From positions 30,349,666-30,413,665 of the forward strand of contig OX485807.1 of the NCBI GenBank assembly GCA_950295325.1: 64,000 nt of DNA. The letters run 5' to 3'. Source of the DNA: Polytrichum commune (lineage: Eukaryota > Streptophyta > Polytrichopsida > Polytrichales > Polytrichaceae). Below are positions 40,906-62,385 of the stretch, in pieces. The first letter of the stretch is position 1. Every line of letters starts with the position of its first letter. The position numbers and the translations under genes were made by a program. The notes under the pieces were generated by a model that saw nothing but the letters and a program-made list of their open reading frames with translations, made no database searches and was not told the origin of the DNA.

Positions 40906-41109
40906 CACACATGAACATTGAACCTTATCAAGAAACCACAAAAATTGTAGGTTCCAATCGAATAATACAAAAACCATCTTATATAAAAAATATTGCAAAT
41001 ACTCAATGTTCATACATGTTCGTATGACTGCTATGCCATTGGCTCTGTAAAGGTTTGGGTTGGCCAGTGGACACACTATCATTTAGAGCCCATCCACACG
41101 GTGGGTCTG

Positions 41110-42400
41110 GGTTTGGGTCGACCTACCCAAACCTTGTGGCACGATGGGATCATGGTCATCCAGATTCCATCCAAACAGTGGGGATAAATTGGGTCGAGCG
41201 ACCCAAACGTTTTCGCAAGATGGGTTCAGGCTCATCACAGAGAGCACCCACACAGCGGGGATGGATTGGGTAGACCGTCCCAAATTATGTAAGGGCACTG
41301 GGATGGGTCAAACCTAGTACATGCCCACTGTGGGATAAGGTTTGGGTCGACCGACCCAAACCTTATAGGGCAGGAAGGGCTCAAAGTCCACCCTAGTACC
41401 TGCCTCACGTGGGGGTGGGTTTGGGTCGACCGACCCAAACCTTCAGGGGCAGGATGGGCTCCGTGTGCACCCTAGTACCTGCCTCATGTGAAGGTGGGTT
41501 TGGGTCGACCGACCCAAACCTTCAGGGGCAGGATGGGCTCCGTGTGCACCCTAGTACCTGCCTCATGTGAAGGTGGGTTTGGGTCGACCGACCCAAACCT
41601 TCAGGGACAGGATGGGCTCCGTGTGCACCCTAGTACCTGCCTCATGTGAAGGTGGGTTTGGGTCGACCGACCCAAACCTTCAGGGGTAGGATGGACTCCG
41701 TGTCCACCCTAGTACCTGCCTCATGAGGGTATAGGTTTGGGTCGACCGACCCAAACCTTGAGGGGCAGGATGGACTCCGTGTCCATCCTAGTACCTGCCT
41801 CATGAGAGTATAGGTTTGGGTCGACCGACCCAAACATTGAGGGGCAGGATGGGCTCAGTGTGCACCCTAGTACCTGCCCCATGTGAGGGTGGGTTTGGGT
41901 CGACCGACCCAAACCTTGAGGGGCAAGATGGACTCCGTGTCCACCCTAGTACCTGCCTCATGAGGGTATAGGTTTGGGTCGACCGACCCAAACCTTGAGG
42001 GCCAGGATGGGCTCCTTGTCCACTCTAGACCCTGCCTCACGAGGGGATAGGTTTGGGTCGACCGACCCAAACCTTGAGGGCCAGGATGGGCTCCTTGTCC
42101 ACTCTAGATCCTGCCTCACGAGGGGATAGGTTTGAGTCGACCGACCCAAACATTGAGGGGCAGCATGGGCTCCATGCGCACCCTAGTACTTGCCCCATGT
42201 GAGGGTGGGTTTGGGTCGACCGACCCAAACATTGAGGGGCAGGATGGACTCCGTGTCCACCCTAGTAACTGCCTCATGAGAGTAAAGGTTTGGGTCGACC
42301 GACCCAAACCTTGAGGGGCAAGATGGACTCCTCAGATGATCAGGGTCAGGCTGAAACCCGCCCACACTAGCGGAGGGGTTTGGGTCGACCGACCCAAACC
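41110..42400. repeat. 79-bp tandem array built on a 22-bp palindrome (centre AC)
   Basis: Thirteen copies start at exactly 79-bp steps (41341, 41420, 41499 ... 42289), with a further copy at 42379 and three degenerate ones at 41112, 41188 and about 41265. Each has the arm GTTTGGGTCG, the centre AC and the arm CGACCCAAAC. The rest of the unit ('gggcaggatgg..ctccgtgt' and 'ccctagtacctgcc') is also conserved. One copy (42131) has an arm mismatch. Short open frames across it are by-products of the repeat. Confidence 0.95.
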
Positions 42401-42420
42401 TGATAAGAGTCACCCTAAAA

Positions 42421-45280: not shown

Positions 45281-46497
45281 TTGCTTTTCGATTTTTGGGC
45301 TAAGCCGCTATAGATAGCGGCTTAGAAGGCCGGGGCCGGGCTTTGGCGGGCAGGAGGCCGGGTGGCCGCTAGGCGCCAAGTGTGCACCCCAGAAGCCTCG
45401 GGTAGCCACCATCACCAATAAGGTGTTGACACATGGCAGGGTGGCTGCCCGCGAGGCTTGTGAGCCGTAGATGGGCTCGGGGCGCTCCCATGGCCCAGAT
45501 TGGGTCCCATGGCGACCCTTCGCTTTGTCTATTTAACTCCCTCCGCGCCAAGCTCCCTCCTTTCTCTCCCTCATTTCTCACCTTGTCGTGAAGCGGCGCC
45601 TCCGCCTAATGCCGCTTCCCACATTCTCTCTCTCATTCCTTTCCACCTCTCTGATTCTTGTAACCCTCTTCTCTCATTCTCTCTTTTTCTTGTAAGGGTT
45701 TAGGAGTGATTGTAGAGTGTGTTTAGGGGTTGGGGAAGTGTTTTTGTGTAGAAATATGCGCATTGAGTGATTTCAGGGTGTGTATGTTGATTAGGAGTGT
45801 TGTTTTGTTTAAAAATACAAGCATTGAGTGATTTCAGAGTGTGTTTGTTGGTTAGGACTGCAAGCGGCGCCTTTCGACTTACACTCATTCTCTCATACTC
45901 TCCTTCTCTCTTCTCTCATTCTTCTCGCCGTCTCTCATTCTCTCTTCTTCTTGTAAGGGTTTAGGAGTGATTGTAGTAGGGTAGTGTTTTTGTGTAAAAG
46001 TATCCGCATTGAGTGATTTCATAGTGTGTTTGTTGTTTAGGAGTGTTGTTTTGTTTAAAAATACGAGCATTGAGTGATTTCAGAGTGTGTTTGTTGGTTA
46101 GGAGTGTGTTTTTGTTTTAAAGTGCGCCGTTGTAGTGATTTCAGAGTGCTTTTGTTGTTTTGAAGTGTGTGTGAGTTGTTTGTGAAATCTAGTGAGTGGA
46201 ATTCTAGTGAGTGTTAGTGATATCTGAGTGTTCAGGTGTAATCAGATTCTAAGAATCAGATTCGCAAAACCTATTCGCAAAACAACATCAGATTGGTAGA
46301 GCTTGCATCAAGGTAACTTATCTCATTCAACATAACCTGCTTCTTAGCCTTTAGGGTCTTCATGCATATACAATGTATAAGCATTGTATATGCAGCGTAA
46401 AACATTATGGGTGAATATGGAAACACTACGGTTTCGGTAGACGCCCGAAACCTCTATATAAAACCCCAAACCCATAAAGAATTAACTGGGCAGCTAG
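45281..46497 (+). promoter_or_regulatory. Probable 5' flank of the long ParB/methyltransferase-like gene
   Basis: A GC-rich patch (45318-45420) is followed by two diverged tandem copies of about 250 bp (45695-45865 and 45950-46130), each with 'gcattgagtgatttca' sub-repeats. TATATAAAA at 46455-46463 is a plausible TATA box. The array of palindromes starts 35 bp downstream, so it would fall in the transcribed leader. This reading is inference from position. Confidence 0.4.
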
Positions 46498-46870
46498 TTT
46501 GGGTCGACCGACCCAAACTCTGCAGCTGGTTGGGTTCGAACGACCCAAAACCTGCAGGCGGTTTGGGTCGCTCGACCCAAACTCTGCAGCTGGTTTGGGT
46601 CGCTCAACCCAAACTATGCAGCTGGTTTGGGTCGCTCGACCCAAACTCTGCAGCTGGTTTGGGTCGCTCGACCGAAACTATGCAGCTGGTTTGGGTCGAG
46701 CGACCCAAACTCTGCAGCTGGTTTGGGTCGCTCGACCCAAACTCTGCAGCTGGTTTGGGTCGCTCGACCCAAACTCTGCAGCTGGTTTGGGTCGCTCGAC
46801 CCAAACTCTGCAGCTGGTTTGGGTCGCTCGACCCAAACTCTGCAGCTGGTTTGGGTCGCTCGACCCAAAC
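46498..46870. repeat. 32-bp tandem array of the palindrome (centre mostly CT)
   Basis: Twelve copies start every 32 bp from 46498 to 46850. Most have arms GTTTGGGTCG and CGACCCAAAC with centre CT. The first has AC, 46530 is rearranged, 46690 has AG, and two have single arm changes. The 10-11 base spacer contains CTGCAGCTG and hardly varies. Because 32 is not a multiple of three, all frames stay open across it, but I do not regard them as genes. Confidence 0.95.
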
Positions 46871-47129
46871 TCTGCAACCTACAAATCCAATATCCCAAGA
46901 TAAACATCCTTCCCACCATCAACAAGAAATTATATTCAAATGGCTATAATTTGAAATCGTCTGATATTTGCTGGCATGTCCACATACGTCCAGCGCGGCT
47001 CTAGAAGGTCACCGAAAATTGCTCTCATGTTGGATAATTTGACCACTACACAATATTCAATATATTCATATTCTTAAGACCCGAACTCTACCAATAATTC
47101 TTATAAGATTAGGCTATTCGAGGCTTGGG

Positions 47130-47236
47130 TTTGGGTCGGTCGACCCAAACCTCTTCATGATGGCCAGTAGAGCACCCTTCAATTCGCACTGATGTTCAAT
47201 CCAAGTTGAAAAACTTTGGGTCGATCGACCTAAACT
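47130..47236. repeat. Two single palindromes in the leader (centres GT and AT)
   Basis: One copy at about 47130 has centre GT. One at about 47215 has centre AT and one arm mismatch (CGACCTAAAC). They lie between the 32-bp array and the acceptor CTTACAG that precedes the start codon at 47262. Confidence 0.85.
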
Positions 47237-47261
47237 AACAATTTTGTTTCTGGACTTACAG

Positions 47262-50200
47262 ATGGCCACTAAAAAGAGACCTGGAGAGAGGTGGTTCATT
47301 CTCGCCCCAGACTACCTTTGGGAGGAGTACGAAACTCCACAGGACGACTCATACGTCCCAAAGGATGGGATTGTTTTTGCGTGGTCCGTTCAGGTTGTGA
47401 AAGCCTCCCAGTACAAGCTCTTGTTCGTGGTGAAAGTGGGGACCCACGAGCAACACACCTGGGCAACGCTGACGGGATGGGAGGTTGCTTCCGTCCAAGC
47501 TCTCGGGGAGCACGTTGACGTTATTCTAGAGAACTCCGCAGTGCAGAACGTGCATATGTTCATGCACCAATTCTCCGAGGCTTTCGACCCCCTATACGCC
47601 AAGGAGACGTGCGTTGACCCGGAGATAATAAAACCGGAGACCATCTTCATAGATGGCACTGTATCGAACACCAAGGTCGCTAGCAGGTTCACAAAACTGA
47701 AACAAGCGATCACGGTTTTGAATAAAGCGTTGCAAAGCAAACCAAAAACGCAACAACCTGTCAGGCGGAAGGCCAAGACAGAAGAAGGAGCAGGTTCCTC
47801 CAGACCCCAATCTGTGAGGATTCCGCTGGCGGTTCCGGCAGATTCTAGAAGACCGAGCACTACCTCGACTCCGGCTGACAGCGAGACGCCAACTCCTTCA
47901 GGAAGCCGGCTGACGACCCCCTCCGGGAGCCGGCAGACGACCCCGTCCGGAAGCCGGCAGACGACCCCGTCGAAAAGGGCAAGAGAGTCATCAGTCATGA
48001 CCACCGAGCCAGTTTCGCCAGAGTTGCGGATGCCCAAGCCTGGCCAAGAGGTTGATGATGGGGAAATTCAAAAAATCAATGACAATTTTGAGACGAAATG
48101 CCTCCATTGCTTCTTCATGGGCAGGGACTTCAAGTTCGAGGTGAACATTGCACAATGCCACCTTGCGCCACCTGAAAAGTGTGTCCGAGCCAAGGAGGAT
48201 GCCTATGTCGACTGGATGGTCGCTCAAATCTTGGGAGGGCAGTTCAAGGACGACAGGCAGACAATTGTCGTGATGCCCCAGGGGCTAAAAAGAATGCCTA
48301 CGGCTGATATGTGGCCGGCGATTTCTAAAGGAGATTTCTGGCTGATTGACGGCCAGCACAGTGTAGAGGCCTCCAAAAAAATCCAGCTGATGACTGAATG
48401 GGACGACCCCAACAACCAGAAGGAGAAGCTGAAGGTATGGAAGGCACTGGTGGTTTGGTCGGACAACGAGACCGTCCTCAGTGACATCTCCAGGTTTTTC
48501 AACATGGGGAATAAAAAGAGGGCGTATCAGGCATCCTGGATTAGGAATATAATGGCCTCGAGGGATGTGTGGGAGTTCTACGGCAGGCCGCCCAAGGAAA
48601 GGGAGAATGCAAAAGACAAGAACCCAAAATGGGAGGTGAGTAAGTTTGGGTCGATCGACCCAAACTCTTGTATTGTTTTATTTTCTTCCCAAGTTTTGTA
48701 GTTTGGGTCGATCGACCCAAACTCTTGGATTCATCAGATTTAAAGTTTGGGTCGATCGACCCAAACTATTGGCATGTTTTATAGTCTTCATCAGATTTAA
48801 AGTTTGGGTCGATCGACCCAAACTATTGGCATGTTTTATAGTCTTCATCAGATTTAAAGTTTGGGTCGATCGACCCAAACTATTGGCATGTCTTATAGTC
48901 TTCATCAGATTTAAAGTTTGGGTCGATCGACCCAAACTATTGGCATGTCTTAAACTGCTGTTCCATTTTTTTCATGATGTGTTCTCTAACATATGTTCTT
49001 GACTTCATGTTCAGGACTTCAAATACCAGATGATCAATAAATTCTCCTCTATTGACAACGCTAGCCACAAGCAAAAAAAATATAACGAGCTAAGAGGAGA
49101 AATCTACTTGATCACAGCGTCCGACTCCGTGTGGATAAAATGGAAGACTGTCTTCGAAAAACACGAGACGGGAGACCTCATCGATCCCGACACCGGTATT
49201 CTGTACAACCAGACTGCGCGCTTCAAGCAAATGAAGCCACTAGTGAGGGAGTTCTTTAGAGCTCTTCAAGGTCTCTCAGAGACAGAGGTGGGAAAGGCGG
49301 CGTCCCACATCCTCCACGTGGAGCCGACGGCGAAGAGATGCTGGGTTCACCCAAAGATCGTCTTCACGAAGCCAAAGATCTTCGTCCCTTCATGCTACAC
49401 CTTGAAGGAATGGACGGAGAACAGGAAAAAGAAGACGACCATTGTCCAAGAGCTGCACAAGCTGGTGCCCGAGAAGAAGCTCATCGTGGACGGAGAGGTT
49501 GACGAGGCGCACTGGAGGGCATTCAAAGCCGAGTACAAGTTCACCAGTGCGTCCATGGCGGCACTCATGAGGGAGGCGGGAGACGACTTCCTCAGGTCCA
49601 AGTTCGTGAAGGGGGGGAGGAACCGGGCGCTTCCCGAACACTCCGCGCGTGCCTTCTCCAACTTTATAAAGGAGAAGAAGATCGTCAGGTTCGAGGGCGA
49701 AGCTCACTTCAACTTGGTCTCCCTCGAACCTCTAAAGATCCAAGGTTGGCCGGGCTCTGAGTCCAGGATGGCGATCAGGACTGCAGCTGGGGACCGCTTC
49801 CCCTTCGGAATGATAGACTTCAGGAACATTCCTGGAGCCTCATTCGAGGGGACAATGAGCACCCCGTTTTACGAGCCGTTCTTCACCAAGTTTGTGGACT
49901 ACGCCAGCCCCAAATTCAGGGAGGTCGACGTCTGGTTGTGGATTGTCGAGGACAGGAGGGCGGAGCAGGTGTACGAGATCGTGCGTAAATTGCAACCAGA
50001 GTACGCCGTCTCAAAATCTCATTACGTTGCTGCACCGGCGGAGGGGGCGTACAGCTCATTGAAAGACAAGAAGACGAAGATAGTCTGTGTGTTGTGCTTG
50101 TACTTCGTGTACAAAGCTGAGCTGCTGAAGGTGCCAAACCATCCTATAGCCCGGATGGAAAAGCTTTTCCAAGTCCCAGAAGCGTTGGGCACCAGCAGGA

Positions 50201-53200
50201 GCTTGTACGACGAGGCGAAGTACGCCAACTACCCCGCGGATGAGCTGCGGATGGATTTTTACCTGCGGATGATGAGGACCCTCACGAAGAGGGGGGACTT
50301 CATCTTCAACGTCTTCGGGGGCTCCAAACCGATTTTTGCAGCAATGGTAAGAAACTAACCTCGTCGATCTATATGCCTGGTTTGGGTCGAGCGACCCAAA
50401 CTATGGGCATGCTTGGTTTGGGTTGCTCGACCCAAACTAGGGCATGCTTGGTTTGGGTCGCTCGACCCAAACTAGGGGCAGGCACAGTTTGGGTCGCTCG
50501 ACCCAAACTAGGGGCAGGCACAGTTTGGGTCGTTCGACCCAAACTAGAGCAGGCACAGTTTGGGTCGCTCGACCCAAACTAAGTATTCTTGTTTTGTTTT
50601 GGGTGTTATTTTTGCTTATTCTTCATTTGTGATCCTAATATTATTGATTTGGATTGTGCAGATGTCTGGGTTGAACATCTACTCCTATGTGGAGGATACC
50701 GATGTTCAATTCTACAGGACCCAGAAGGCTCTGGCGAAGAGAATGGACATCCTCGACTGGATTCCCGGATCCTACGTCGAAGAGATCGTCGAGGGGGGTG
50801 AGAACCCGTTGGATATGGCCAGGCGAATCAACCCAGGCGAATTCGTCATGCAGGCCCCCGTTCAAATGCCAGAACCCCTCACCGGATTGCATCTGGGCAA
50901 TCCGTCCGTGGAGGCAGGTGGCGAGGTTGCGGAGGAGGAAGAGGAGGAGGAGGAGGAGAAAGTGGAAGGAGAGGTGGAGGAAGGGGCAACAGGATTCACT
51001 CAAGAATCCGAGGCCCCTCAGCGGAAGAAGGCCATGCGTGTCGCGCACCTCTCCATGAGGAGTGGCCGAAACACCATGGGCACAAGGGGGACCCCGGAGT
51101 GACACCCGGGACTTGTGGCGCCGTTGGTGAGAGGGCCCAAGTGATCCTAGTGTGGGTGAGGGCCCCGGGCGTTGGGAACGCCTCCCACCCACGAAGACTA
51201 GGAGGCACAAGGGCAAGGCCATGAGCTATGCGTAGCTCATGGCGTGGTGATTCTAGAATGCTCAAGATCACCTCAAGCGGAGGTGGGAGCTAGGAGTTAT
51301 GGCCATTTGAGTGGGGCGCTGTCCCGGGACAGCGCCCTGGTACAGCAGTGCCTGGGAGTGATTCCCGGGACTGCCAAGGTTCAAACAGGCATAACTTCCT
51401 CAAGACTTGCTCAAATGGGGCAAGTGAGGAGTCCATCGGCATCTACGTGAAGCGTAGATGAAGATGGAGTGGTTGGTTGTTATGATCAGACATCATACAA
51501 GGAAGTTATGATGGTCTGAAGCTGCTGGGGGGGTTCTAGGCCCAGCGGCTAAGGGAAAATGTCCACTTGGCCCCAACTCTTGGTAGAGAGACAAGAGGTT
51601 GGTTGACGGTGGGGTAGGGGCCCCGCGTAAAGTCCTAGAGGCTTATATGGGTGAGGTGGTGTGGCCTCACCCACCCGAGGCCGAACGGCACGGCCTCCAT
51701 GGGCATTGGCCCATTGTGAGGCCATAGTTGCCTAGTATGGTTCGGGTTGTTGTAGTGTTGCTCCGGCAACGCGATGATCAACATAGGATTGGACTTCCAT
51801 GGATGGAAGTCCACATTGGGGAAATGGGTTACCGATTAAGGGGTGAGTCCCGAAAGCAAAGTAGGAGGGTTGGTTCCCTCCTATGAACTATTGGTCCGGG
51901 GTAAGAGGAGCTATCCATTAGCATGGCGGAATGCGAAGGGTTAGCAACTCGTAACCTTTGCTAGAATTGAAAATTGGCAAGATTATTAATGGACCTAGCA
52001 AGGGTTGCGACACGTGGTATCAGAGCAGGGTTCCAAATTTTGAGCTCACACTTTGAGGGAAACATGGCTATCAAAAATACGGGTTGTGATGGTGAGCCCG
52101 GGGTTTCCAAAAGGTTGTGAGGCTCAAATTGGAACAAGGATCATGTGCAAATAGAGTTTGATCATACCATTGATTTTAATGGTAATGGTGGGCATGAGGG
52201 TGGATTCGGTGAGGAAAATGGAGGTGTCCTTTGAAAGGGCTCCCACAAACCTCAAATAGTATTTGGGGCCTAGAATACCGAATGCACCCAAAACCTTGGA
52301 GGGTATTAATGTTGGATTGAAATTTCAATTCGAGATGCTTCGAAGGTTCGGATGTTGAAATGAACTTGGTGCTAATGAGGCACCCGGGGCCTCTTAAGGC
52401 CTATGTGTGCTATTCAAACGCACAAATGAAGGATACACCTAAAACGGACGAGCTTTCTAAGAAATGCATCGTTTTAGGTGGGGTTTTAAAAGCGGGTGGT
52501 GGATGCCTTGTTTAAGTCCCCAAGGCTTCTTGAGGACATGGTGGGGATCATCAAGTTTGCAAGATCATTGAATCCGATGGTCCCGAAGAAAAGTTTGGCG
52601 GCGCATCACCACAAGTGGCTTTAGCCAAAGTAGGTCCCAAAGAAATGAGTGCAAATTGTTTGGTCCATTTTACTTAGGCAAAACATATTGGTGCCGCAGA
52701 CGGAATGTTGAAAGATGGCTTTATGCTTCCAAAGCAAATCATACTTGTGCCGCGGATGGAATGTTGGGAGGTGGGTTTGTCCTACCAAGGCAATTCATGT
52801 TCGTGCCGCGGACGGAGTGTAGGAAGGTGGCTTTGTGCTACCAAGGCAAAACATGTTTGTTTTGCGGACAAATTATTAGAAATTGGTTTTGTGGCACCAA
52901 ACCAATTTGTCGTGCGGACGAAATGTTTAAAGTTGGCTTTGTGGACCAAGCCAAGCCAAGTTGCCGAGGACCAAATGTTGGACGATGGCTTTGTGGCCAA
53001 GGCTAGTAGCCTTAAGCCGAGGCCAAGTATTTTGTACCTTGAGGCTCAAATGAATGGGAGAAATGTCTCATGTGTTGACAAAGAGGCTATTACTCCTTCT
53101 TGAGCCCAAAACTCACAAGGGAGTTGGGGCTTGCCGATTGATAGAGAAAGCAAGCCCACCAAGGTGCGGTTTGGAAAGGGCAAACCGCATGAGACAAAGG

Positions 53201-56200
53201 AGGCCGCGATGCATGTAACCTTTCAATGTGGGACATTGGATTTTTGTCAAAATTTCACACCATGTGAAATAGATGAAATGCATATCATTGTGAAGGCCGC
53301 CTACGTTGAAACTCACATGATAGATGTGAGGTGCAAGCCGGTGAGCTTGCGGTGCATTATGATGGGTCATAATGGCAAAGAATTGAAGTTCAAATTGACA
53401 AGGACTCCTATGTTAGGAGGACCCAAGGTGAATTTGGTCTTAATGGACCAAATGAAAAATAGAAAACATAATGGTCGTGGTTCAATTGGAGCAACTCCAA
53501 GGAATGTATGGGGAGGCTAGGAAAGATGGGCCTCCTCCAAACCACATTGGTGGGATGTTGGTGAGATACAAGGATGTATTCACCAATGTGTTGCCCAAAA
53601 AAATTACCGCCAAGAGGTAAAAAATAACTTTGCTCAACGAGAGATTGAGTTCTTCAGGTATGTGGTGACAAAGGAAGTTGGTGGACGAACATGAAGAATG
53701 TCAAGGCAATCCAAAAAGAGAATTGGCCCTTGATTCAAGAAAAGGGCTTAGGTCATTTGTTGGCCTAGCCAACTACTACCACCACTTCATTCATGGTTTT
53801 GCTAAGGTTGCTAGAACCTTAGTCAACATGTTGGAAAAAAATGGCTATCCCCAAGAGTGGGATGAGCCTTGTCACCAAGCCTTTGGGAAGCTCAAGAGTA
53901 AGTTCTCTTCACAAGATGTGGTTAAGTTTCCGGGTTTTCATGAGCATGTTGAGGTGCACATGAAGGCGAAGGACTTTACCATTGGCGGATGTTGATCCAA
54001 GATGGATGACCATTGCTTATGGGAGCATTAAGCTCCGTGGTTGTAGAAGCTTGTCGAACTTGTGCAAGAAATGGCTATCCCAAGAGTGGGATGAACCTTG
54101 CCACCAAGTCTTTGAGGAGCTTAAGACCAAGTTCCTCTTTACCACCCGTGTTCAAGTTCGCGGAGCTTGAAAAACCTTTTGAGGTGCATACGGGGGGCGA
54201 GTGACTTTACCATTGGCGGATGTTGATGCAAGATGGATGGCCATTGCATATGAGAGCATGAAGCTCGATGGTTCGACTTGTGAAAGAAATGGCTATCCCA
54301 AGAGTGGGATGATGTTTGTCATGAGTCTTTGGGGAGCTTAAGACCAAGTTCTCTTTACCACCCGTACTCAAGTTCGCGGAGCTTGACAATTCTTTTGAGG
54401 TGCATACGGGGGTGAATAACTTTGCCAATGGTGGATTATGTGTAAGATGGATGGCCATTGCATATGCGAGCATGAAGCTCGATGGTTGTTAAAGAAGACA
54501 ACCAACTCATGACAAAGAACTTCTTTGCGGTAGTGCATTGCTTGAAGATGTGGCGACACTAGTTGGGGTCACACAAAGTAAAGGTCTACAAGGACAATGT
54601 GTCCTAAAAGTATTTTGACATACAAGCGCAAGTGAGCGCCAAGTCATTGCGTTGGCATGATAGCTTGGCGCTTATGAAGGTGGATTTGGTCCACAAACCG
54701 GACCGTGGAAATGTGGTGCCGGATGCGCGAAGTAGACCGGAAGAGTTCCAAGCAATGAGAACCATCCAAAAGTTGTGGCTAATGTGTGCGGCGAAGGAAA
54801 CTTGTGATGCAAGATACGGGAGGGGTAAATTAATTACCCCAAAGCACAAAAGCTTTTAGGTGAGCTTCGCAAGAGCAAGGTGCTCAAAGAGGTTAAGTTG
54901 GTGGACGGATTGTTCAAGTGCAAACAAAGTCGGGTATTTGTGCCACAAGGCAAGTTGAGGCTATCGGTTTTGAAGGAAAAATGTGATAGCCCTATTGCCG
55001 GCCATAGAGGAGAAAGAAAAAAAAACCGCCATAGAATGGTGTCAAAGAGGTACCATTGGCGGTGCATAAAAGAGGATATAACCCACTTTGTGAAGGCGTG
55101 AATAAAGTGCCAAGTGAACCGAGCCTCTTACCAAAAGCAAGGCGGTTTCTTGCAACCGTTGCCTATCCCGTCGGCGCCATGGCATAGTATGTGCATGGAC
55201 TTGATCATAAGTTTGCCGGAGTCACATGGGTATGATGCCATCTTGTTGATGGTAGAGCGGTTTGCCAAGTTGGCACACATGGTGCCGATTGTGGGAACCG
55301 CCACCGCGTTGGAGACCGCATAGCCTTTTCTCAAAGGATGGTTGAGGCACCACGGGTTGCCAAGAGTGATTGTGTGGGATCAAGATCCAAAGTTCACAAG
55401 TGCATTTTCAATGCATTTCTCTAAGGAGGTCGGAATGAAACTAAGGTTTAGCACGGCCTTGCATTCCCAAATTAATGGGAAAGCGGAGCATGTGAATGGA
55501 GTCTTGAAGCAATACTTGAGGAACTTGGTGGGGGCGGACCAAGGAGATTGGGCGGACTATGTGGGTCGAGCGGAGTGTAATTGCAATGTAGCCACGCACT
55601 TGGCTACCAAGGGGTGGTCTTTCGTGGTGGCTTATGGAGTGGATGCGCTCCAACCTATTAACCTAGCTCTCGAGGGGGCACATTCAACACTAGAGTTCAA
55701 CCAAGATGGTGAGGACTTGGCCAAGGATGGTAAACAAGTCTTGGAGATGACCAAGTTGTTGGTGGAGAAAGCCCGAAGGTGCTACGGAGTGCAAATCAAT
55801 GCCGGAAGACGCGAAGTGGAGAATGAGGTGGGCCAAAGGTGTTGTTGAATGTGAACAACTTCACTTAGCCGAAAGGCCTCACTCCAAAGTTCATGTCCAA
55901 AATTGGAGCTTTGTTTTCAATTGTGGAACAAGTGTTCAAGGACATGTATAAGTTGGAATTACTGCCGGAGATCAAAGTGCATCCGACATTTCATGTCTCA
56001 TTCCTAAAACCATTTAAGGACGACACCTTGTGGCCCGATCACAAGCAAGTGATTAGGCCACCTCCCCACCTTGTGGACGTCATTTGGAACATGAGGTAGG
56101 AGGGCATCCTCAAGTGTAGGAAGCCCAAGTAAAAATGAAAGAAAATGTACAAAGGAGTACTTGGTGAAATGGTGAGGATACCATGAGAAAGAAACCGCTT

Positions 56201-59200
56201 GGGTGGCGGCAAGAGACATGGTGAACACCAATGAATTGGTGAAGCACTTTGAAGAAACTAAGGCTAGACATTCCAATAAAATGAAGCGTAGGCATTGATG
56301 AGGACATCAATCTCCTTTAGTGGGGGAGAGACTCTAGTAGCAAACATAGCTTCGAGGTTAATTGCTCCACAACATGCACTTGTTCTTTGGCTTGAGGGAA
56401 TAAAGTCCAAACTTTAGTGGTGCAAAGAGAAAAGTATGAGATGAGGTCCTAGTCTTGTACTTGTGCTTGGTTAATGGAAGAGGGGGAATAGACATGCCAA
56501 ACTAGGTTGGGTAAGCCGAGTAATTGGGGCCATGGCTTGGAGGGGCCTTGGATAAAACCAAGAAACTTCTTAGTTGTGGGCTTGTCCGGGCGGGGACAAG
56601 GTGATGGCGCGTGCTCATAAAAGTGCTACCCGCGAGCTAACGAGAGTTGGCGCATGGGAGTCATGAACCCATGTCTCGAAAGAGCAAAGTGGGAACCGAG
56701 TCGGGCGGGACTTGGCATCACCCCCGTGCGATCGAGGCGTGGCTTAACAATGGAAAGCCATCTCGGAGTTGCAACCGAGACAACTTAGTGGAAGCGTTGA
56801 GGTCTCGCCTAGATGTGTCATGTTAGGCTAGTGAAGCCTAATGGGGGAGGCCCCAAAGGAGGGGCAACCCAAGTGAGTCTCAAAGTAGGTGGGTCTATTG
56901 TAGGTTAGGTCGTTGGAGGAGTTCCAAGGTCGCTAACGGACCGCCTAGTAACGACACCTTTGGGACTATGCCAAATTTGAAGATGCATTGTGGGGGTCGC
57001 GCCCTAAGGTAAACACAATGCCGCACCATAGAGGATGGCAACTTGAGAATTGGTGTGCCGACTACGAGTATAGTCGATGAGGGCATCGACTCCGTTTGGT
57101 GGGGGTGAGTGTCGCGCACCTCTCCATGAGGAGTGGCCGAAACACCATGGGCACAAGGGGGACCCCGGAGTGACACCCGGGACTTGTGGCGCCGTTGGTG
57201 AGAGGGCCCAAGTGATCCTAGTGTGGGTGAGGGCCCCGGGCGTTGGGAACGCCTCCCATCCACGAAGACTAGGAGGCACAAGGGCAAGGCCATGAGCTAT
57301 GCGTAGCTCATGGCGTGGTGATTCTAGAATGCTCAAGATCACCTCAAGCGGAGGTGGGAGCTAGGAGTTATGGCCATTTGAGTGGGGCGCTGTCCCGGGA
57401 CAGCGCCCTGGTACAGCAGTGCCTGGGAGTGATTCCCGGGACTGCCAAGGTTCAAACAGGCATAACTTCCTCAAGACTTGCTCAAATGGGGCAAGTGAGG
57501 AGTCCATCGGCATCTACGTGAAGCGTAGATGAAGATGGAGTGGTTGGTTGTTATGATCAGACATCATACAAGGAAGTTATGATGGTCTGAAGCTGCTGGG
57601 GGGGTTCTAGGCCCAGCGGCTAAGGGAAAATGTCCACTTGGCCCCAACTCTTGGTAGAGAGACAAGAGGTTGGTTGACGGTGGGGTAGGGGCCCCGCGTA
57701 AAGTCCTAGAGGCTTATATGGGTGAGGTGGTGTGGCCTCACCCACCCGAGGCCGAACGGCACGGCCTCCATGGGCATTGGCCCATTGTGAGGCCATAGTT
57801 GCCTAGTATGGTTCGGGTTGTTGTAGTGTTGCTCCGGCAACACGATGATCAACATAGGATTGGACTTCCATGGATGGAAGTCCACATTGGGGAAATGGGT
57901 TACCGATTAAGGGGTGAGTCCCGAAAGCAAAGTAGGAGGGTTGGTTCCCTCCTATGAACTATTGGTCCGGGGTAAGAGGAGCTATCCATTAGCATGGCGG
58001 AATGCGAAGGGTTAGCAACTCGTAACCTTTGCTAGAATTGAAAATTGGCAAGATTATTAATGGACCTAGCAAGGGTTGCGACAATGCGGGCTGCCACGCC
58101 GCAGAGCAAGCTAGTGCCCGTCCTCACGGTGGCCGACGCGAAGGACATGTATTCGAGGGACGCGACAGCCACCTTCAGGGAGCGGCGAATGCTGAAGGGG
58201 AAGAAATTATATAGCGACTATGCGGTGGAAGAGACGATCGCCATAAGCTCCGAGGACGAGGACGACATGGAGCTCGCAAAGAGGCTGAGGTCGGATCCTG
58301 CCTCCCCCACAGCGTTCGCCGGGATGGTGAGGGTGAAACCCGAGGTCCTCACCGTGGAGGAGGCCAACGCGAAGATGCTCCGGGACGAGGAGCAACGCAT
58401 CCGATTGCAGAAGGCCGCCGCCGAGGAGCCCTCGGTCCGCAACGAAGTCGCGGAGTTGAGGGCTCTCCTGTTGGAGCAGGAGCAGCAAAGGGCGATGGCC
58501 CCACCTCCGTCCCAAGCGGACCTGATCACGCAAGTGATCCAGGGCATGCTGGCGCAGGGATTGGTGATGGCTCCCCCGAGTTCATTCCCTCACTTGCCAG
58601 CAGGCTTCCCTCCACAGGATATCCGCCCGCGGCCGGCTACGCAGCAGTCCTTCAGCTTCGCGCATTTGTTGCAGCCTCACGCCCGCCCTTACGCGCCCGT
58701 CCAGCAGGTGGACGACCCCAACCTTTGGCGCGTCCCCGGAGCTTCCAGCCCGTTGGGACCCCCGCCGCTCCGGCCTCCCATCCTCTTGCCCCCACACCAC
58801 TAGCGGGACGACCCCCACATGTTTGGGTCGGCCGACCCAAACAGTGCCGACGTTGCAGCTTCCCAGAGCGACGCTCGCCAAGCAACAGGGTTTGGGTCGG
58901 CCGACCCAAACCCCGTCCCCGATCAGACCCCGGTGGACGAGCCCATGTTAGATGTTGAAGGCCCGCAAGGGCCTGGTGATACCTCTACTCCTAACCCAGT
59001 CGATGAACCAATGCATGATGCGCATGCGGAGGTTGGGTTGGGACAAAGGCCTGACAGTCAGCCTTTGCATGAGCAGGTTGAGGCTGAAGTCGTCGTCGGA
59101 GGCGGCGGTGACAGAGGTGGGGCAGCGCACGCGGTGACGGCATCCACGTCGTCAAGGCGCGACCAAGGCGAGGTAATGCACTGACCCCACTCAGTTTGGG

Positions 59201-60500
59201 TCAGTCGACCCAAACTCCCTGGGTCTTTGTCTTCTTGCCTTGGTCGTGTCCCCTAGCTACCCTAAACTCACGCACACGTCGCGCCCCCCGGCACTCGCGC
59301 CCTTCGCCACATCCCCCCGACCATTCATTCGTCCACATACCCCCGGCTTGCGACGAAGTCTTCATCACGGCGGCCCGTCTCTTTAATTTTTGCTAGATGT
59401 AGAAGTAGGCTAGTTTGAACGCATCGTTCAACGCGGCTCCCCCCCAATCAAGATGTACATAGAGCATTGTATACAATATAATCACCATTTTTTACTCCTA
59501 TATACTTGTATCCTGTGTTTGGATGTATGTTGTATGCTCTTGCCTCTCTTGTGTCCCTTGTTGCACCCCCTCCAAAATGAATCAAATGGTTTTGTGTTTG
59601 CACCGAGAACACTCGTTTCTTTAAATGCTTCGTTTGGACATAGCATGACATAAGTCGCCCACCGTTTTCTCTCGATCGTATCCGCAGGGCTCGGAGCATA
59701 GCGTAGCGGCTCCCCGACGCTCTTCTCCAAGGAGTGGAGAGGGCAGCGCGGCGGCGCCCCCGATTTTACCCGTCCCGCCCCCGCGGCCGAAGAAACGATT
59801 CCTGGTGTTAGACCTGAACGGGGTCCTCGTCCAATGCGTTCATTGCCCTAGGACCCCCACGGTGCCCTTTTGCAAGCCCGAGGATGCTAATTACGACGGG
59901 CCGCCCACATTCATAAAGAGCAAGCTAGTTCACCTCCGCCCGTGGCTTCGGACCTTCCTCCAGATGGCCCAACAGCGATGGTGGGTGGTCGTGTGGAGCT
60001 CCATGACGGCCGAGAACACCAATGCCGTCGTGGAGTTCGTCTTCAAGGGCATCGAGCCCCCCTGCATGGTCCTAGCACAGGAAGCCTGTAGAATATTGTA
60101 CACACCGGACGGCAAAGTCGTCAAAAAACCAAACAACCCCGCTTCCCCCCAATACCTCAAGGTCTTGAAGCCCATTTTTTGGGACCAGCGTCCGTCATTG
60201 ATAGGCGTCCCCTACGACGTCCGGCCCACCCGCGAGAACACGCTCATGGTGGACGACAGCGCCGCAAAGAACATGTTGAACCCGACGGCCAACCTCATAG
60301 TTTGCCCTACGTGGACGGTCGAGAAGGTCCGGGACCGATTTTTGTTAGACCTTGGTAAATACCTCCAGGCGCTCTGCGAAAGCGGACTGCCCGTAAACAA
60401 TTTTGTTAGGAACAATCCGATAGGCGAGAGATACTTGGATCCACGAGACCATTTGTACAGAGAGTTGTTATCTCACGCGAAATTTAACAAGCTCATTTGA
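47262..60500 (+). CDS. ParB-like / beta-class methyltransferase-like / FCP1-type HAD fusion, split by an LTR element
   Basis: Exons: 47262-48635, 49015-50346, 50662-51038 resuming at 58089-59172 (an LTR element lies between), and 59688-60500. All borders are GT-AG and all phases are 0. ATG directly follows CTTACAG. Without the insert it encodes about 1,659 codons. Exon 1: unknown N-terminal region, repeated TPSGSR linker, then a ParB-like block with FWLIDGQHS (Asp at residue 363) and DISRFFNMGNK. Exon 2: GMIDFRNIPG near residue 724, where motif IV would be, then RMDFYLRMMRTLTKRGDF and VFGGSKP (residues 891-897), joined to AAMMSGLNIYSYVEDTD across intron 2. This is the motif X to I region of beta-class DNA methyltransferases. 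Exon 3: acidic, coiled-coil and Pro-rich linker with an in-frame TAG at 58801-58803. Exon 4: FCP1/NIF-type HAD domain with VLDLNGVLV (residue 1431) and LMVDDSAAK. ParB and HAD calls are firm by motif; the methyltransferase call is by order and spacing. Confidence 0.6.
48636..49014 (+). repeat. Intron 1 with six identical palindromes (centre AT)
   Basis: Copies start at 48645, 48702, 48746, 48803, 48860 and 48917. The last three steps are 57 bp. Each is a perfect 22-base palindrome because the centre is AT. The donor is GTGAGT and the acceptor TGTTCAG. The first palindrome starts nine bases after the donor. Confidence 0.9.
50347..50661 (+). repeat. Intron 2 with six palindromes (centres CT, AG, TT)
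   Basis: Copies start at 50381 (AG), 50417 (CT, one arm change), 50452 (CT), 50488 (CT), 50524 (TT) and 50559 (CT), at 35-36 bp steps. The spacer is 'aggggcaggcaca'-like. The donor is GTAAGA and the acceptor TTGTGCAG. The intron splits the methyltransferase motif I region. Confidence 0.9.
51039..52012 (+). repeat. 5' LTR
   Basis: 974 bp, TGTCGC...GCGACA. It contains a perfect 24-base palindrome (51314-51337, centre GTCCCGGGAC) and other hairpins: CCATGAGCTA/TAGCTCATGG near 51219-51242, CATCTACG/CGTAGATG near 51440-51460, and GACTTCCATGGATGGAAGTC near 51794. Confidence 0.95.
52015..52026 (+). other. Primer binding site
   Basis: TGGTATCAGAGC starts two bases after the 5' LTR and matches the complement of the 3' end of plant initiator tRNA-Met, the usual primer of such elements. 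Confidence 0.9.
52027..53130 (+). other. Leader/gag-position region with a degenerate repeat of about 57 bp
   Basis: No intact gag was seen. From about 52690 to 53000 a unit beginning TGCCGCGGACGGAATG recurs about six times (52692, 52747, 52803, then weaker), encoding variants of a 'GFVLPRQ' peptide. This replaces the expected gag and suggests a rearranged, non-autonomous element. Confidence 0.5.
53131..54000 (+). pseudogene. gypsy protease-linker and RT/RNase H remnant
   Basis: The first part (53131-53520) resembles the protease-to-RT linker of Ty3/gypsy Pol (CEIDEMHIIVKAAYVE, VDLR-like and LGGPKVNLV stretches). Next, PPNHIGGMLVRYKDVF (about 53530-53580) is followed almost at once by EIEFFRYVVTKE and then by GLRSFVGLANYYHHFIHGF (about 53740-53800), the RT thumb and RNase H boundary. 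The RT palm with its catalytic acids is missing. Frames change several times. Confidence 0.75.
53838..54505 (+). repeat. Triplicated RNase H segment inside the retroelement
   Basis: The segment beginning 'atggctatccc..aagagtgggatga' occurs at 53841, 54071 and 54289, that is three tandem copies of about 220 bp. Each carries a decayed version of the same RNase H stretch (KPFEVHTG/GG). Confidence 0.85.
54600..56280 (+). pseudogene. gypsy integrase and weak chromodomain remnant
   Basis: Pieces in order: ALMKVDLVHKPDRGNVVPDA (RNase H end, about 54680), a zinc-binding part with HRG and a broken second pair (about 54990-55095), the core PWHSMCMDLIISLPESHGYD (about 55180-55240), WDQDPKFTSAF and NGKAEHVNGVLKQYLR (about 55376-55530), then VHPTFHVSFLKPF (about 55978) and a remnant resembling EYLVKW...ETAW (56157-56215). 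Stops at 55101, 55321, 55846 and 56097 break it. Confidence 0.85.
56292..56330 (+). other. Internal copy of the polypurine-tract region
   Basis: 'gaggacatcaatctcctttagtgggggagaga' closely resembles the true pre-LTR sequence at 57078-57110. It lies right after the integrase remnant, where the PPT of a standard element would be, so about 780 bp of extra sequence separates it from the current PPT. Confidence 0.5.
57093..57109 (+). other. Polypurine tract
   Basis: TTTGGTGGGGGTGAG lies immediately before the 3' LTR at 57110, the expected place for plus-strand priming. Confidence 0.75.
57110..58083 (+). repeat. 3' LTR
   Basis: 974 bp, the same ends as the 5' LTR. The two differences I found are C/T near 57258 and G/A near 57841. 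Confidence 0.95.
58822..58912. repeat. Two palindromes in exon 3 (centre GC)
   Basis: Copies start at 58821 and 58890. Centre GC makes each a perfect palindrome. Both are in the same reading frame as exon 3 and each would encode FGSADPN. They lie just after the in-frame TAG at 58801-58803. Confidence 0.9.
59173..59687 (+). other. Intron 3 with one palindrome
   Basis: Donor GTAATG, acceptor TATCCGCAG. One palindrome at about 59194 has centre GT and one arm change (GTTTGGGTCA). The rest has no recognisable feature. Confidence 0.75.
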
Positions 60501-60665
60501 GACACTACGTGTGTTTGTATGTGTATGTATGTATGTGTGTGTGTGTGTGTGTGCGCGCGCGCCCGTTCATTTTGTGTAATATATGCTTCATATGTATCTT
60601 GATTTTCACGCGCTCTATCAAACCCTCCTCCCTTGGGTTTTGTTTCGTTTCCTTTTTTGCGCCAG
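60501..60665. repeat. (GT)n/(GC)n microsatellite
   Basis: A GT-rich run at 60505-60552 leads into GCGCGC. It lies just after the stop codon of the fusion gene. Confidence 0.9.
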
Positions 60666-61501
60666 CGTTTGGAGCCCTCGATTGACATCGTCAGCGAGTC
60701 GGACTTGGGGAGCTTCTTCTACGAGACCGTCTACGACGCCGCGTCGACCATTGACTACTCCAAGGAGCCTCTTGACGCCGGCGTCGTCGATAGCCCCCCA
60801 CCCAAGCAAATCTTCCGGCATTCTCCGTCCCCGTCGCCGCTCAAGGGCATAAATCGCAAATGCGTCCGGACATCCCCCTCTCCGCCCGGCGGCAGTAGTA
60901 CACCTCAACGGCGGCTGCGGATGGACGCTCGGCCAACGAAGAGTGGAACCCTTCCTATTCCTTTGCGGGACGCATTGCCCCTCCTCGCCGACTCCGACGG
61001 GAACGCCCCCGGTGACAAGGTGAACCCCCCCCCCCCCCCCAAACCTGGTTAACCGCGCATTACAATCATTTTGCACTTAAAAAATGAACGTGTGACACGT
61101 TTGGGTCTTCCTCCCTAAACTAACACATGTGGTCTTGCATTGACGCGTTGCAGGTTGCTCCCACCCGTAAACCTATGCGGTCTAGTGCGTCCATCGAGTT
61201 CGAGCGTATGTACGCCATGACCAGAAATGCGAGACAATCCACTTCATCGTATTCGAATTCTTCGACGTATATTTCGGGTGGCCGACGGACTCCAAAATGT
61301 GTTATGGATGGCGGTCACCCCAAGAATGGCTATAGTCGCGGGGCGGAGATTTTCAGGAATGTTGAAGCAATGCGAGCAAAAGAAGCTGCAGCAAAAGAAA
61401 AAGAGGCAAAAGAAAAAGAGGCAAAAGAAAATGAAGCAAAAGAAAATGAAGCAAAAGAAAATGAAGCAAAAGAAAAAGAGGTAGTCTCCGAGGCTAGATA
61501 G
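60666..61501 (+). CDS. Two putative further exons, low-complexity tail
   Basis: Piece 1 (60666-61019) follows a TTTTTTGCGCCAG acceptor and ends at donor GTGAAC. Piece 2 (61154-61501) follows CGTTGCAG and ends in TAG. Both are in phase 0 like the four exons upstream. The intron between them holds a degenerate palindrome (about 61100: GTTTGGGTC / CCTAAAC). Piece 1 is Ser/Pro-rich (ESDLGSFFYETVYDAAS). Piece 2 ends in repeated EAKEK/EAKEN units coded by a 15-bp tandem repeat (61381-61481). If exon 4 uses an earlier donor, for example GTAAAC near 60393, these could be the true C-terminus. Otherwise they are a separate transcript or relic. Confidence 0.35.
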
Positions 61502-61619
61502 TCCATAGTAGGCGTAGGGTTGTGGGCCATAGGCAAGAACATTTTGGGTCGCACTATCCAATGGATGTGTGGTGTTAGCATGCTATGCATTTTACGTGCC
61601 ATACTTTGTATGTTTTTTT

Positions 61620-62150
61620 TGCAATAATATAAGTGTCACATGATTTTGCCTTCAATATGGTCTAAGGTTTGGAGTGCCTTATTGTGTGCATTAATATGAA
61701 TGTTTTAAGATTTTCCCTTCAATAAGATCTATGGTTTGGATTGCCCTACCTAAACCATATTCATACAAGCTCTCATATTTTGTGTGCATTAATATGAATG
61801 TTTTAAGATTTTCCCTTCAATAAGATCTATGGTTTGGATTGCCCTACCTAAACCATATTCATACAAGCTCTCATATTTTGTGTGCATTAATATGAATGTT
61901 TTAAGATTTTCGCTTCAATAAGATCTATGGTTTGGATTGCCCTACCTAAACCATGTCCATACAAGCTCTCATATTTTGTGTGCATTAATATGAATGTTTT
62001 AAGATTTTCCCTTCAATAAGATCTATGGTTTGGATTGCCCTACCTAAACCATATTCATACAAGCTCTCATATTTTGTGTGCATTAATATGAATGTTTTAA
62101 GATGTCCCCTTCAATTTGGTCTAAGGTTTCGATTGCCCACCCTAAACCAT
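61620..62150. repeat. 98-bp tandem repeat with a weak palindrome
   Basis: Four good copies start at 61703, 61801, 61899 and 61997, with degenerate ones before and after. Each contains GGTTTGG, about ten bases, then CCTAAACC. This recalls a decayed form of the 22-base palindrome. Confidence 0.9.
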
Positions 62151-62385
62151 CACAAATATGAGTTATTAATGGGGTTCTTGGTCTAAACACCCGCTTCAAA
62201 GTGTTTGCATCTTACAACTTTCACCAATATGTGTTCCATTTATCCTTGTTCTTATTTCTATGAATGTCTCAAAATGCCCAAAAAGTCTCAATTTAACGAA
62301 TATAGTGTTAGTTTAGAAAAGGATACAAAAGTGAACTTAGTAAAAAATCAATTTTGATAAATTCAAATACTCCCTTCTTCGATAC

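Follow-up and report, generated by a model that had tools for sequence, protein, structure and literature searches.

It is proposed, with a probability of about one half, that the palindrome M1 of the window (the whole 64-kb stretch of Polytrichum commune DNA that was analysed) is the family-specific site of a DNA-binding protein, which is encoded by the transposon carrying the palindrome and would have a VANC-like anti-silencing function. The palindrome arms are under constraint relative to the centre and the spacers, palindrome and gene clade diversify together, and M1 is also present in a second, unrelated transposon superfamily.

M1 is confined to a DNA transposon in the window

M1 is a 22-letter palindrome, GTTTGGGTCG-NN-CGACCCAAAC, with two 10-bp arms and a two-base centre. 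The palindrome that the original prediction had described in the leader and introns of one gene is real: at ≤3 mismatches, 45 matches (36 of them exact) are found in the window and 0 in dinucleotide shuffles, and the 408-Mb genome has 9,231 exact sites, compared with 0 for the reversed control. The predicted coordinates are right within one base (the start is 46497, not 46498), and so are the periods of 32, 35-36 and 57 bp, next to which there is one step of 44. The prediction did not include the transposon to which the ParB-like gene and the arrays belong, the LTR-retrotransposon insertion or the array at 41111-42399, nor the occurrence of M1 in a second transposon superfamily and the apparent loss of the methylase catalytic motif. 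All 45 copies are inside this transposon and none outside; 16 are between the transposase ORF and position 42700, and 29 are in the ParB-like gene (leader, 14; intron 1, 6; intron 2, 6; exon 3, 2; intron 3, 1). The features are:

37301..62310, no strand: whole DNA transposon, 25,010 bp including the later LTR-retrotransposon insertion; 29-bp perfect terminal inverted repeats (TIRs), 2-bp target site duplication (TSD)
37301..37329, + strand: left TIR, starting TAACACTATATTCG; 29 bp, perfect inverted repeat
37833..40924, - strand: transposase gene, two open frames; DUF7869 (Pfam PF25273, E 9.6e-43) in 37833-39341
41111..42399, no strand: 16-copy palindrome array on the 5' side of the transposase gene; period mostly 79 bp, AC as the centre of 15 copies
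46497..46870, no strand: palindrome array at the start of the leader of the ParB-like gene; 12 copies, 32-bp period
47129..47235, no strand: two further leader palindromes (47129, 47214), from the M1 scan
47262..48635, + strand: exon 1 (458 aa) of the ParB-like/methyltransferase-like gene, with the motif IDGQHSVEASK; open frame, splice sites by eye
48644..48937, no strand: intron 1 array of 6 palindromes, which have AT as their centre and are mostly spaced by 57-bp steps
49015..50346, + strand: exon 2 (444 aa), with methyltransferase-like motifs as read by eye and IDFRN in place of DPPY
50380..50579, no strand: intron 2 array; 6 palindromes, 35-36-bp steps
50662..59172, + strand: exon 3, split by the retrotransposon; two palindromes within the reading frame
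51039..58083, + strand: LTR retrotransposon that interrupts exon 3 and does not belong to the system; LTRs start at 51039 and 57110, 5-bp duplication ATGCG
58821..58911, no strand: exon 3 palindromes (58821, 58890); arms conserved, flanks diverged
59194..59215, no strand: intron 3 palindrome, one arm mismatch
59688..60500, + strand: NIF/FCP-type phosphatase exon of the same element (Pfam PF03031, E 2e-14)
62282..62310, - strand: right TIR; 29 bp, perfect inverted repeat

The 2-bp duplication is seen by eye in the window copy and in 10/10 other copies fetched at both ends, and at ≤3 mismatches the TIRs match the genome 788 times on one strand and 802 times on the other. CACTA/EnSpm elements have TIRs starting with CACTA and a 2-3-bp TSD; in the present element the TSD is 2 bp (11/11), but the TIR starts with TAACACTA. 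The ParB-like/methyltransferase-like gene is on the strand opposite to the transposase, and its first leader array begins just downstream of a TATA-like sequence (by eye) near 46455.

That 29 of the 45 copies belong to one gene, where they occupy its leader, introns and exon 3, would fit with a role of the palindromes as RNA hairpins in introns and leaders, and a 22-nt M1 copy indeed folds into a 9-bp hairpin (-13.2 kcal/mol, z -5.0). This role is nevertheless very improbable, as any such palindrome folds in this way, the conservation of the arms is in their sequence, and the M2 arrays of the MULE locus L030 (see below) begin >1 kb upstream of a TATA-like sequence (by eye).

The arms are conserved and the centre is variable

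When the units of 13 arrays are compared with each other (312 unit pairs, L027 and L050 being excluded), the mean pairwise difference is 0.043 for the arms, 0.326 for the spacer and 0.506 for the centre, and the arms are less divergent than the spacers in 13/13 arrays. Exon 3 gives the same picture within a reading frame: in three copies the arms differ at 0/40, 1/40 and 0/40 positions and the flanks at 10/146, 62/146 and 62/146.

The centres had been read correctly in the window, being AT in intron 1 (6/6), GC in exon 3 (2/2), GT in the intron 3 copy and mostly CT in intron 2 (4/6) and in the leader array (9/12). Their interpretation as a locus label, like the core of a recombination site, and the expected uniformity of centres within each array do not hold, as the centre is the most variable position in the arrays (0.51 versus 0.04 for the arms). 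It is also not fixed per site: in the three other copies of the element that were read, the intron 1 centres are AT GT GT TT; AC AT AT; and AC AT AT.

Period and copy number of the tandem M1 arrays vary between element copies, and RNA-directed DNA methylation can act on tandem repeats (PMC10398659). Both points would be compatible with arrays that face the host, as neutral or selfish repeats, silencing triggers or repeats spread by recombination, without a binder encoded by the element. Such an origin is unlikely, because neutral drift would not keep the exon 3 arms at 0-1/40 while the flanks reach 62/146, and the same arms are found over different spacers, none of which recurs exactly in both the MULE arrays and the window-type arrays that were read. 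The spacer comparison had been meant to show a transfer of arrays between these two kinds of elements, for which it gave no exact match.

A related DUF7869 element has a different palindrome

A homologous DUF7869 element (L099+L101) has the same anatomy, with a different palindrome and without M1. Its transposase is 64-76% identical to that of the window element, compared with 32% for exon 1 (E 3e-54) and 37% for exon 2 (E 4e-86) of the ParB-like gene, and the phosphatase exon is kept at 41% identity. It carries 17 palindromes of another sequence at the same places as M1 in the window element, the palindrome paired with the L101-type protein being TTTACGGACG. M1 is found in none of the three other DUF7869 families sampled, of which two possess their own clear palindrome array and the third has a looser one. 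A cluster of 30 sites at L100 was set aside as a loose imperfect palindrome, rescanning with a regularised arm having found 1 site.

It is possible to regard the palindromes as transposase sites needed for transposition, as for the subterminal repeats of CACTA elements, and one M1 array does adjoin the transposase gene. CACTA elements have repeats bound by element proteins, and the TnpA motif of maize Spm is placed subterminally; the palindrome placement here is, in contrast, internal, the nearest M1 being 3.8 kb from the left end and 3.1 kb from the right end. This function is also made doubtful by the location of 29 of the 45 copies in the ParB-like gene, by the replacement of the palindrome in the L099+L101 element next to a transposase that is 64-76% identical and a ParB-like protein that is 32-37% identical, and by the MULE palindromes, which track the clade of the ParB-like gene.

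Palindrome and gene diversify together in MULEs

Further palindromes (M2-M5) are found in MULEs with a ParB-like gene, and they follow the gene clade with one exception. MULEs have terminal inverted repeats, a TSD of about 9 bp and a transposase with a SWIM zinc finger. At L035+L030+L033, TIRs of about 61 bp (87%) and the direct repeat AGTTGGCAT at both ends are observed (one copy only); the Pfam SWIM match (E 0.076) is below the cut-off, and no transposase model matched. Of 15 MULE loci in which a ParB-like exon is present, four have no accepted palindrome array, namely L037, L040, L047 and the one in the window, the weak clusters of L037 and L040 not being counted as motifs.

On the tree of the MULE ParB-like gene, whose rows were picked partly for a nearby motif cluster and in which L043 is labelled separately (M4like), M2 (17 rows), M3 (17), M4 (9) and M5 (3) need one change each, and all 8 palindrome labels together need 7 changes, which is the minimum, compared with a shuffled mean of 29.3. 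The M4 repeat of L043 is imperfect (≤2 mismatches at 4 sites), and L043 groups outside the M4 clade; when it is counted as M4, 7 changes are needed versus the least possible 6, and M4 alone needs 2.

The palindromes are 5' of the matching gene in 32/33 clusters having a scored gene within 5 kb, and one M4 cluster is 3' of the gene. This comparison covers the first 50 palindromes listed for each of M2-M5 and 239 gene places from 150 + 150 listed rows, some of them common to both; these places do not include short fragments or most of the rows with about 38% identity, and their clades were assigned by identity. Clusters for which no scored gene is found within 5 kb (M2, 1/9; M3, 9/26; M4, 8/15; M5, 4/5) count neither way, because many genes were not scored. 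The gene at C1:73645650 was assigned to the M3 group after M3 had been noticed beside it, and the tree puts it in this group on its own sequence.

This joint change of palindrome and gene between families is as expected if the gene product recognizes the site, and the original suggestion that the palindrome might be the site of its own gene's product is retained in this form; the role of the centre as a label is not part of it any more.

The ParB-like/methyltransferase-like protein

The window-type gene is under purifying selection, with dN/dS values of 0.04-0.08 in four comparisons (exon 1, 0.04 with one other copy; exon 2, 0.06-0.08 with three copies); for the MULE ParB-like exons the values are 0.08-0.62 (11 pairs), highest in close pairs. 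The ParB-like and methyltransferase-like domains of the original prediction can be kept at the motif level. A D-G-x-H motif is present in the ParB-like region, and a PHROG ParB match at E 0.019 is obtained with the protein of the second DUF7869 element; in Pfam and PDB, the scanned exons (window-type and MULE) have no ParB match and no match to support the methyltransferase-like label, and a Pfam match to DUF1985/DUF287 is also not found in the exons scanned. With hhalign, the window and MULE ParB-like proteins match weakly (E 0.0074, probability 5%). In an HMM search for their homology, the window exon does not appear in the list of targets, which extends to E 28. Single-sequence structure predictions of exons 1 and 2 have pLDDT values of 33 and 32, and no fold search is based on them. 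In viral contigs, neither relatives of the MULE ParB-like domain nor M1 are found.

The catalytic motif of N4/N6 DNA methyltransferases is (D/N/S)PP(Y/F/W). At the DPPY position, IDFRN and FDFRA are read by eye in the two DUF7869 elements, and QFPD, EYPD, DYPD, DIPE and DYPN are read in the six MULE copies where this stretch is found. The methylase catalytic motif appears to be lost, as judged from a by-eye alignment of a region without Pfam support. This argues against an active N4-cytosine/N6-adenine methyltransferase by which the element would be marked at its own palindrome, an improbable function for both the DUF7869 and the MULE copies. The same domain idea has been published for Sola1-1_Ec32 of Ectocarpus, also a giant transposon with an opposite-strand gene for a ParB-like and N4/N6 methyltransferase protein, for which binding and modification of the transposon that encodes it have been proposed; this transposon has a transposase of another superfamily, and no target site is given in the part of the paper that describes it (PMC12477816), whereas the catalytic motif appears lost here.

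The combination of a palindromic site and a ParB-like motif is shared with bacterial ParB-parS systems and ParB-methylase fusions, such as the ParB domain of Bacillus cereus fused to an adenine methylase (as cited in PMC5512222). A partition or centromere-like role, with ParB acting on parS-like palindromes, is the least credible of the functions considered: no ParA-like match is found among the ten window proteins scanned, exon 2 copies are listed on contigs C1-C7, the sequence resemblance to ParB is weak and the sites are dispersed and family specific.

Comparison with VANC and proposed mechanism

Arrays of the VANC motif are described in VANC and VANB introns and upstream of VANA, and VANDAL motifs and VANC proteins diverge together (PMC5735166, in the sections on these motifs). 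As far as the accounts in PMC5735166 and PMC10398659 go, the likeness concerns a transposon-encoded protein with family-specific tandem arrays of a short motif in noncoding parts, including introns and the region upstream of the transposase, and the joint divergence of motif and accessory protein next to a more conserved transposase, to which L043 and M1 in a MULE subclade are exceptions here. In the same accounts, VANC has DUF1985/DUF287 and a 9-bp motif, YAGTATTAY, without a long palindrome, whereas here the motifs of the protein are ParB-like and methyltransferase-like, the transposase of the window element is of the DUF7869 type, the palindromes are about 20-22 bp, and the system is found in two transposon superfamilies with one motif common to both. 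The activity of TnpA of maize Spm (CACTA), another element protein, also goes with demethylation (PMC10398659).

In the anti-silencing reading, which is preferred here, the most likely binder would be the protein encoded by the ParB-like/methyltransferase-like gene, which has the palindrome in its leader, introns and exon. A dimer of this protein would recognize both 10-bp arms, irrespective of the two bases at the centre, and the expressed protein would prefer GTTTGGGTCGNNCGACCCAAAC over TTTACGGACGNNCGTCCGTAAA. The sites would have been multiplied by tandem duplication in noncoding parts (5' of the transposase gene, in the leader and in introns), and the bound protein may keep the element genes active or unmethylated, like VANC on Arabidopsis VANDAL elements. 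As a change of the protein is accompanied by a change of the palindrome, the action of each family would be mainly on itself. If it had no anti-silencing activity, the protein would still be an element-specific transcription factor.

Escape from silencing with the host being spared is worked out for one Arabidopsis system in the literature cited here. The present genome would offer about eight palindrome-gene pairs in two superfamilies (two pairs in one locus each), and, as these pairs can be read from sequence, the protein-target rule is testable and the proteins are candidates for the recognition of DNA over about 20 bp.

M1 in a second transposon superfamily

In the genome-wide scan for the arm pair, by which a link of the palindrome to the gene family was to be checked, the 100 M1 sites listed of the 9,231 are distributed over three DUF7869 elements and four MULE loci, which makes seven loci in all. 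It can tentatively be imagined that the two superfamilies run parallel anti-silencing systems, with ParB-like/dead-methylase-like proteins and private palindromes, and that one MULE subclade has added M1 to its own palindrome and can thereby be kept active in trans by the protein of the DUF7869 element. If true, an anti-silencing factor would be exploited across transposon superfamilies, one target crossing between unrelated transposons.

The ParB-like protein of the M1-bearing MULE subclade is hardly similar to the window protein, and the presence of M1 next to it is unexpected under a strict one-protein-one-site rule. Among 12 leaders sampled in this subclade, M2 is present in 12/12 and M1 in 8/12, the four without M1 being the most diverged. 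On the tree, this distribution of M1 (8 rows with, 4 without) needs 2 changes, and 24/500 shuffles are as low.

Distribution of the palindrome M1 and its carrier

The palindrome M1, GTTTGGGTCG-NN-CGACCCAAAC, is present in 45 copies in the window at three or fewer mismatches (36 exact; 0 in 100 shuffles), and exact copies occur 9,231 times in the 408 Mb of the genome, where the control pattern, read backwards, gives 0. The observation is real and no artefact. The sites, periods and centres listed in the original prediction are correct for the window, whereas a 16-copy array at 41111-42399 had been overlooked. All 45 copies lie inside a single DNA transposon, which has the following features ("ParB-like" and "methyltransferase-like" are motif-level labels for the accessory gene opposite to the transposase).

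Features of the DUF7869 transposon and distribution of its M1 copies
37301-62310: whole element, with perfect 29-bp terminal inverted repeats at its ends
Minus strand of the element: transposase, Pfam DUF7869 (E 9.6e-43)
Plus strand of the element: multi-exon ParB-like gene, motif IDGQHSVEASK, with methyltransferase-like motifs identified by eye
59688-60500, after the ParB-like gene: NIF/FCP phosphatase exon (E 2e-14)
51039-58083, in exon 3: LTR retrotransposon, a later insertion (duplication ATGCG)
5' of the transposase gene: 16 M1 copies
Leader of the ParB-like gene: 14 M1 copies
Intron 1 of the ParB-like gene: 6 M1 copies
Intron 2 of the ParB-like gene: 6 M1 copies
Exon 3 of the ParB-like gene: 2 M1 copies
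Intron 3 of the ParB-like gene: 1 M1 copy

The target duplication is 2 bp, as judged by eye, in the window copy and in all ten copies fetched with both ends, and, at three or fewer mismatches, the terminal repeat is matched 788 times on one genome strand and 802 times on the other. Plant-type CCCTAAA telomere repeats open two of the three chromosome ends examined, the third opening with N.

An in-frame stop at 58801-58803, ahead of the exonic palindromes, is absent from the three other copies compared, and on this sequence evidence the ParB-like gene of the window copy is probably broken there, besides its interruption by the retrotransposon. Two tandem arrays were also noted: a 98-bp array (61682-62150, 4.8 copies) with imperfect GGTTTGG / CCTAAACC arms near the right end of the element, and, outside it, a 40-bp array (63582-63899, 8 copies) of the near-palindromic GGCTGCTGGGCAGCC. 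The flanking open frames at 36733-37323 and 62344-62952 resemble, by eye, the N-terminal frames of a MULE at another locus (L030), and the DUF7869 element seems to have inserted within the transposase gene of something MULE-like. A diverged ParB-like/methyltransferase-like gene belongs to this interrupted MULE itself (29367-33605, minus strand; up to 58% to copies of the M3 clade described below), and it includes a 411-bp tandem duplication (31270-32091, 99% matches); no palindrome array was found in this region.

Constraint on the arms of the palindrome

The arms of the palindrome are under constraint and the centre is free, as seen when the window element is compared with three other copies. 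In coding exon 3, the arms of the two palindromes differ from the window at 0/40, 1/40 and 0/40 positions, their flanks at 10/146, 62/146 and 62/146, and their centres at 1/4, 2/4 and 2/4. The dN/dS values relative to the window are 0.04 for exon 1 (one copy; dS is outside the range of the formula in the other two) and 0.08, 0.08 and 0.06 for exon 2 (three copies, the match of the 2.12-Mb copy being partial); the 1.18-Mb copy has one stop in each of these exons and the 2.12-Mb copy has one, in exon 1.

In the period-32 arrays (12 from MULE loci and one from the window; 312 unit pairs), the mean pairwise difference between units is 0.043 for arms and 0.326 for spacers, with arms less divergent in 13/13 arrays, the exclusion of units with more than 8/20 arm mismatches giving some bias in favour of the arms. 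The centres, predicted to be uniform per array, have a mean pairwise difference of 0.506 within arrays, and the view of the centre as a fixed locus label fails, as the same site has different centres in other copies.

Replacement of the palindrome in other DUF7869 families

The DUF7869 search, in which 150 of 1,489 candidates were scored, yielded several families, and the region upstream of the transposase was examined in three others. M1 is absent from this region in all three; two have a clear array each, of CCCACGGGTGTTCACCCGTGGG (7 sites) in one and TTTACGGACGCGCGTCCGTAAA (10 sites) in the other, and the third has a looser, imperfect palindrome, GTGGGGCATATGCCTCAC (30 sites). The second family (locus L099, extended by L101), the one of the three in which the ParB-like gene was compared, is homologous to the window element: the identity is 64-76% for the transposase, 32% (E 3e-54) and 37% (E 4e-86) for the ParB-like/methyltransferase-like exons, and 41% for the phosphatase exon (5370-6080 of L101). 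It has 17 palindromes of its own at three or fewer mismatches, sited as in the window (seven 5' of the transposase, six in the leader, one in intron 1 and three in intron 2), and its palindrome has the same design as M1, with 10-bp arms having CG ends and two central bases.

M1 in the MULE superfamily

Of the 9,231 M1 sites, the 100 listed are distributed over three DUF7869 elements and four further loci, these four having long DNA stretches in common. The one of these four examined in full (L035+L030+L033) is a MULE with terminal inverted repeats of ~61 bp (87%), a 9-bp direct repeat, AGTTGGCAT, at either end and a transposase with a SWIM match below the cut-off. A ParB-like gene of its own (WDGNHRxxAW) is placed divergently and includes methyltransferase-like exons; all six MULE copies where the relevant stretch could be located have another sequence in place of the DPPY-type motif (QFPD twice, EYPD, DYPD, DIPE and DYPN). 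In the MULE, M1 sites occupy the ParB-like gene's leader and a transposase intron, and no exact shared spacers (<20 bp) were found when four window-type elements were compared with 12 MULE loci.

This MULE belongs to a ParB-like gene clade, clade A, which bears a further palindrome, M2 (CCCTGTGCG-N4-CGCACAGGG), besides M1. Among 12 further clade-A leaders, M2 is present in 12/12 and M1 in 8/12, and the four that lack M1 show the greatest divergence in this set (84, 80, 72 and 65% identical). The centre has two bases in M1 of the window element and in the L101 homologue, and four in M2-M5. The simplest reading is that M1 originally belonged to the DUF7869 element and was later gained by a MULE subclade. 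The timing of this gain is weakly supported by the tree, because the M1-less L088 lies near M1 carriers, so that M1 presence needs two changes, and 24 of 500 shuffles are as good.

In the leaders of L030 (6853-8551) and other clade-A loci, a second palindrome, CCCTGTGCGTTAACGCACAGGG, is arrayed upstream of the gene that M1 also precedes; the CGTTAACG core is constant and the outer arms vary, reading CATGTGCG in the 65% copy.

Match between palindrome and MULE gene clade

The match between palindrome and gene clade is near one-to-one. The MULE ParB-like gene family is large and diverse (150 of 1,194 and 150 of 1,157 candidates scored), and the search for repeated palindromes covered 12 diverged loci, the clusters in shuffles being of two at most. 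Besides M2, the palindromes are M3 (GGGTGGCCG-N4-CGGCCACCC), M4 (GGGTGCCG-N4-CGGCACCC), M5 (GTGTCTCG-N4-CGAGACAC), M6 (GGCATCTCGGATCCGAGATGCC) and M7 (CAATGAAG-N3-CTTCATTG); no acceptable array was found in L037, L040 and L047 (3/12) or in the window's own MULE. In a cross-scan at two or fewer mismatches, each locus has a single M2-M7 type or none, the exception being M1 beside M2; L043 has an imperfect M4 and a gene outside the M4 clade.

Genome-wide, M2 has 493 sites, M3 103, M4 729 and M5 1,145 (reversed controls 0). Among the clusters drawn from the first 50 sites of each, with clades sorted by the author, a scored ParB-like gene lies within 5 kb of 8/9 (M2), 17/26 (M3), 7/15 (M4) and 1/5 (M5), the null means being 0.06-0.17. 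The gene is of the matching clade in all clusters with a nearby scored gene, and 32/33 clusters are on its 5' side.

On a 53-exon tree, a single change suffices for each of M2 (17 rows, support 100/100), M3 (17 rows, 90/90), M4 (9 rows, 100/100) and M5 (3 rows, 100/100), and the four motif-less rows need three. All eight labels need 7 changes, which is the minimum, and shuffles need 29.3; near-copies group by descent, and the shuffles show label clustering alone. When L043 is counted as M4, M4 needs two changes, and seven labels need 7 (least possible 6). The dN/dS of the MULE exons is 0.08-0.62 (11 pairs), indicating purifying selection in distant pairs and weaker selection in close ones.

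Pieces of another MULE-like ParB-like/methyltransferase-like gene were seen at 6618-6899 and 10033-10149 of the window, and between them, at 8592-8716, a 46-bp array in which CTAGTTGGAA and TTCCAACTAG form inverted arms, perhaps the palindrome of a further family. A dense array of an M5 variant, with centre GTAC or CTAC, lies between two clade-A MULE loci (contig C1 of G000, 468470-471927).

Proposed function of the ParB-like protein

The three strongest results are the constraint in exon 3, the replaced palindrome of the homologous element and the match between palindrome and clade. Selected sites that are mostly noncoding and are replaced as a set with gene divergence form the pattern of VANC and VANDAL, which is why the ParB-like protein is proposed as the palindrome binder. 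We infer that this ParB-like/methyltransferase-like protein would bind the palindrome as a dimer and, when bound, would keep its own element active, counteracting silencing. According to two reports (PMC5735166, PMC10398659), VANC is a protein of the Arabidopsis VANDAL transposons that binds family-specific motif arrays, which lie in introns and ahead of the transposase, and removes methylation; the accessory protein is less conserved than the transposase. The likeness to VANC is in the proposed working mode and the difference is in the protein family, so that the moss system is not a member of VANC.

For the giant transposons of Ectocarpus, ParB-like plus methyltransferase proteins have already been published (PMC12477816); green and red algae are mentioned as well, and the proposal was that such a protein binds and modifies the element encoding it. 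In the available text of open papers on such transposon proteins, no target site, co-diversification or cross-superfamily sharing was found.

Both DUF7869 elements have conserved the NIF/FCP-type phosphatase as a cargo exon. Phosphatases of this type target RNA polymerase II tails, and because of this action the enzyme may be part of the same counter-silencing kit. In L101 (582-1871), the ParB-like exon has a weak YEATS match, below the cut-off (E 0.017), in its N-terminal portion; a chromatin-reader domain of this kind would fit the proposed role of the ParB-like protein.
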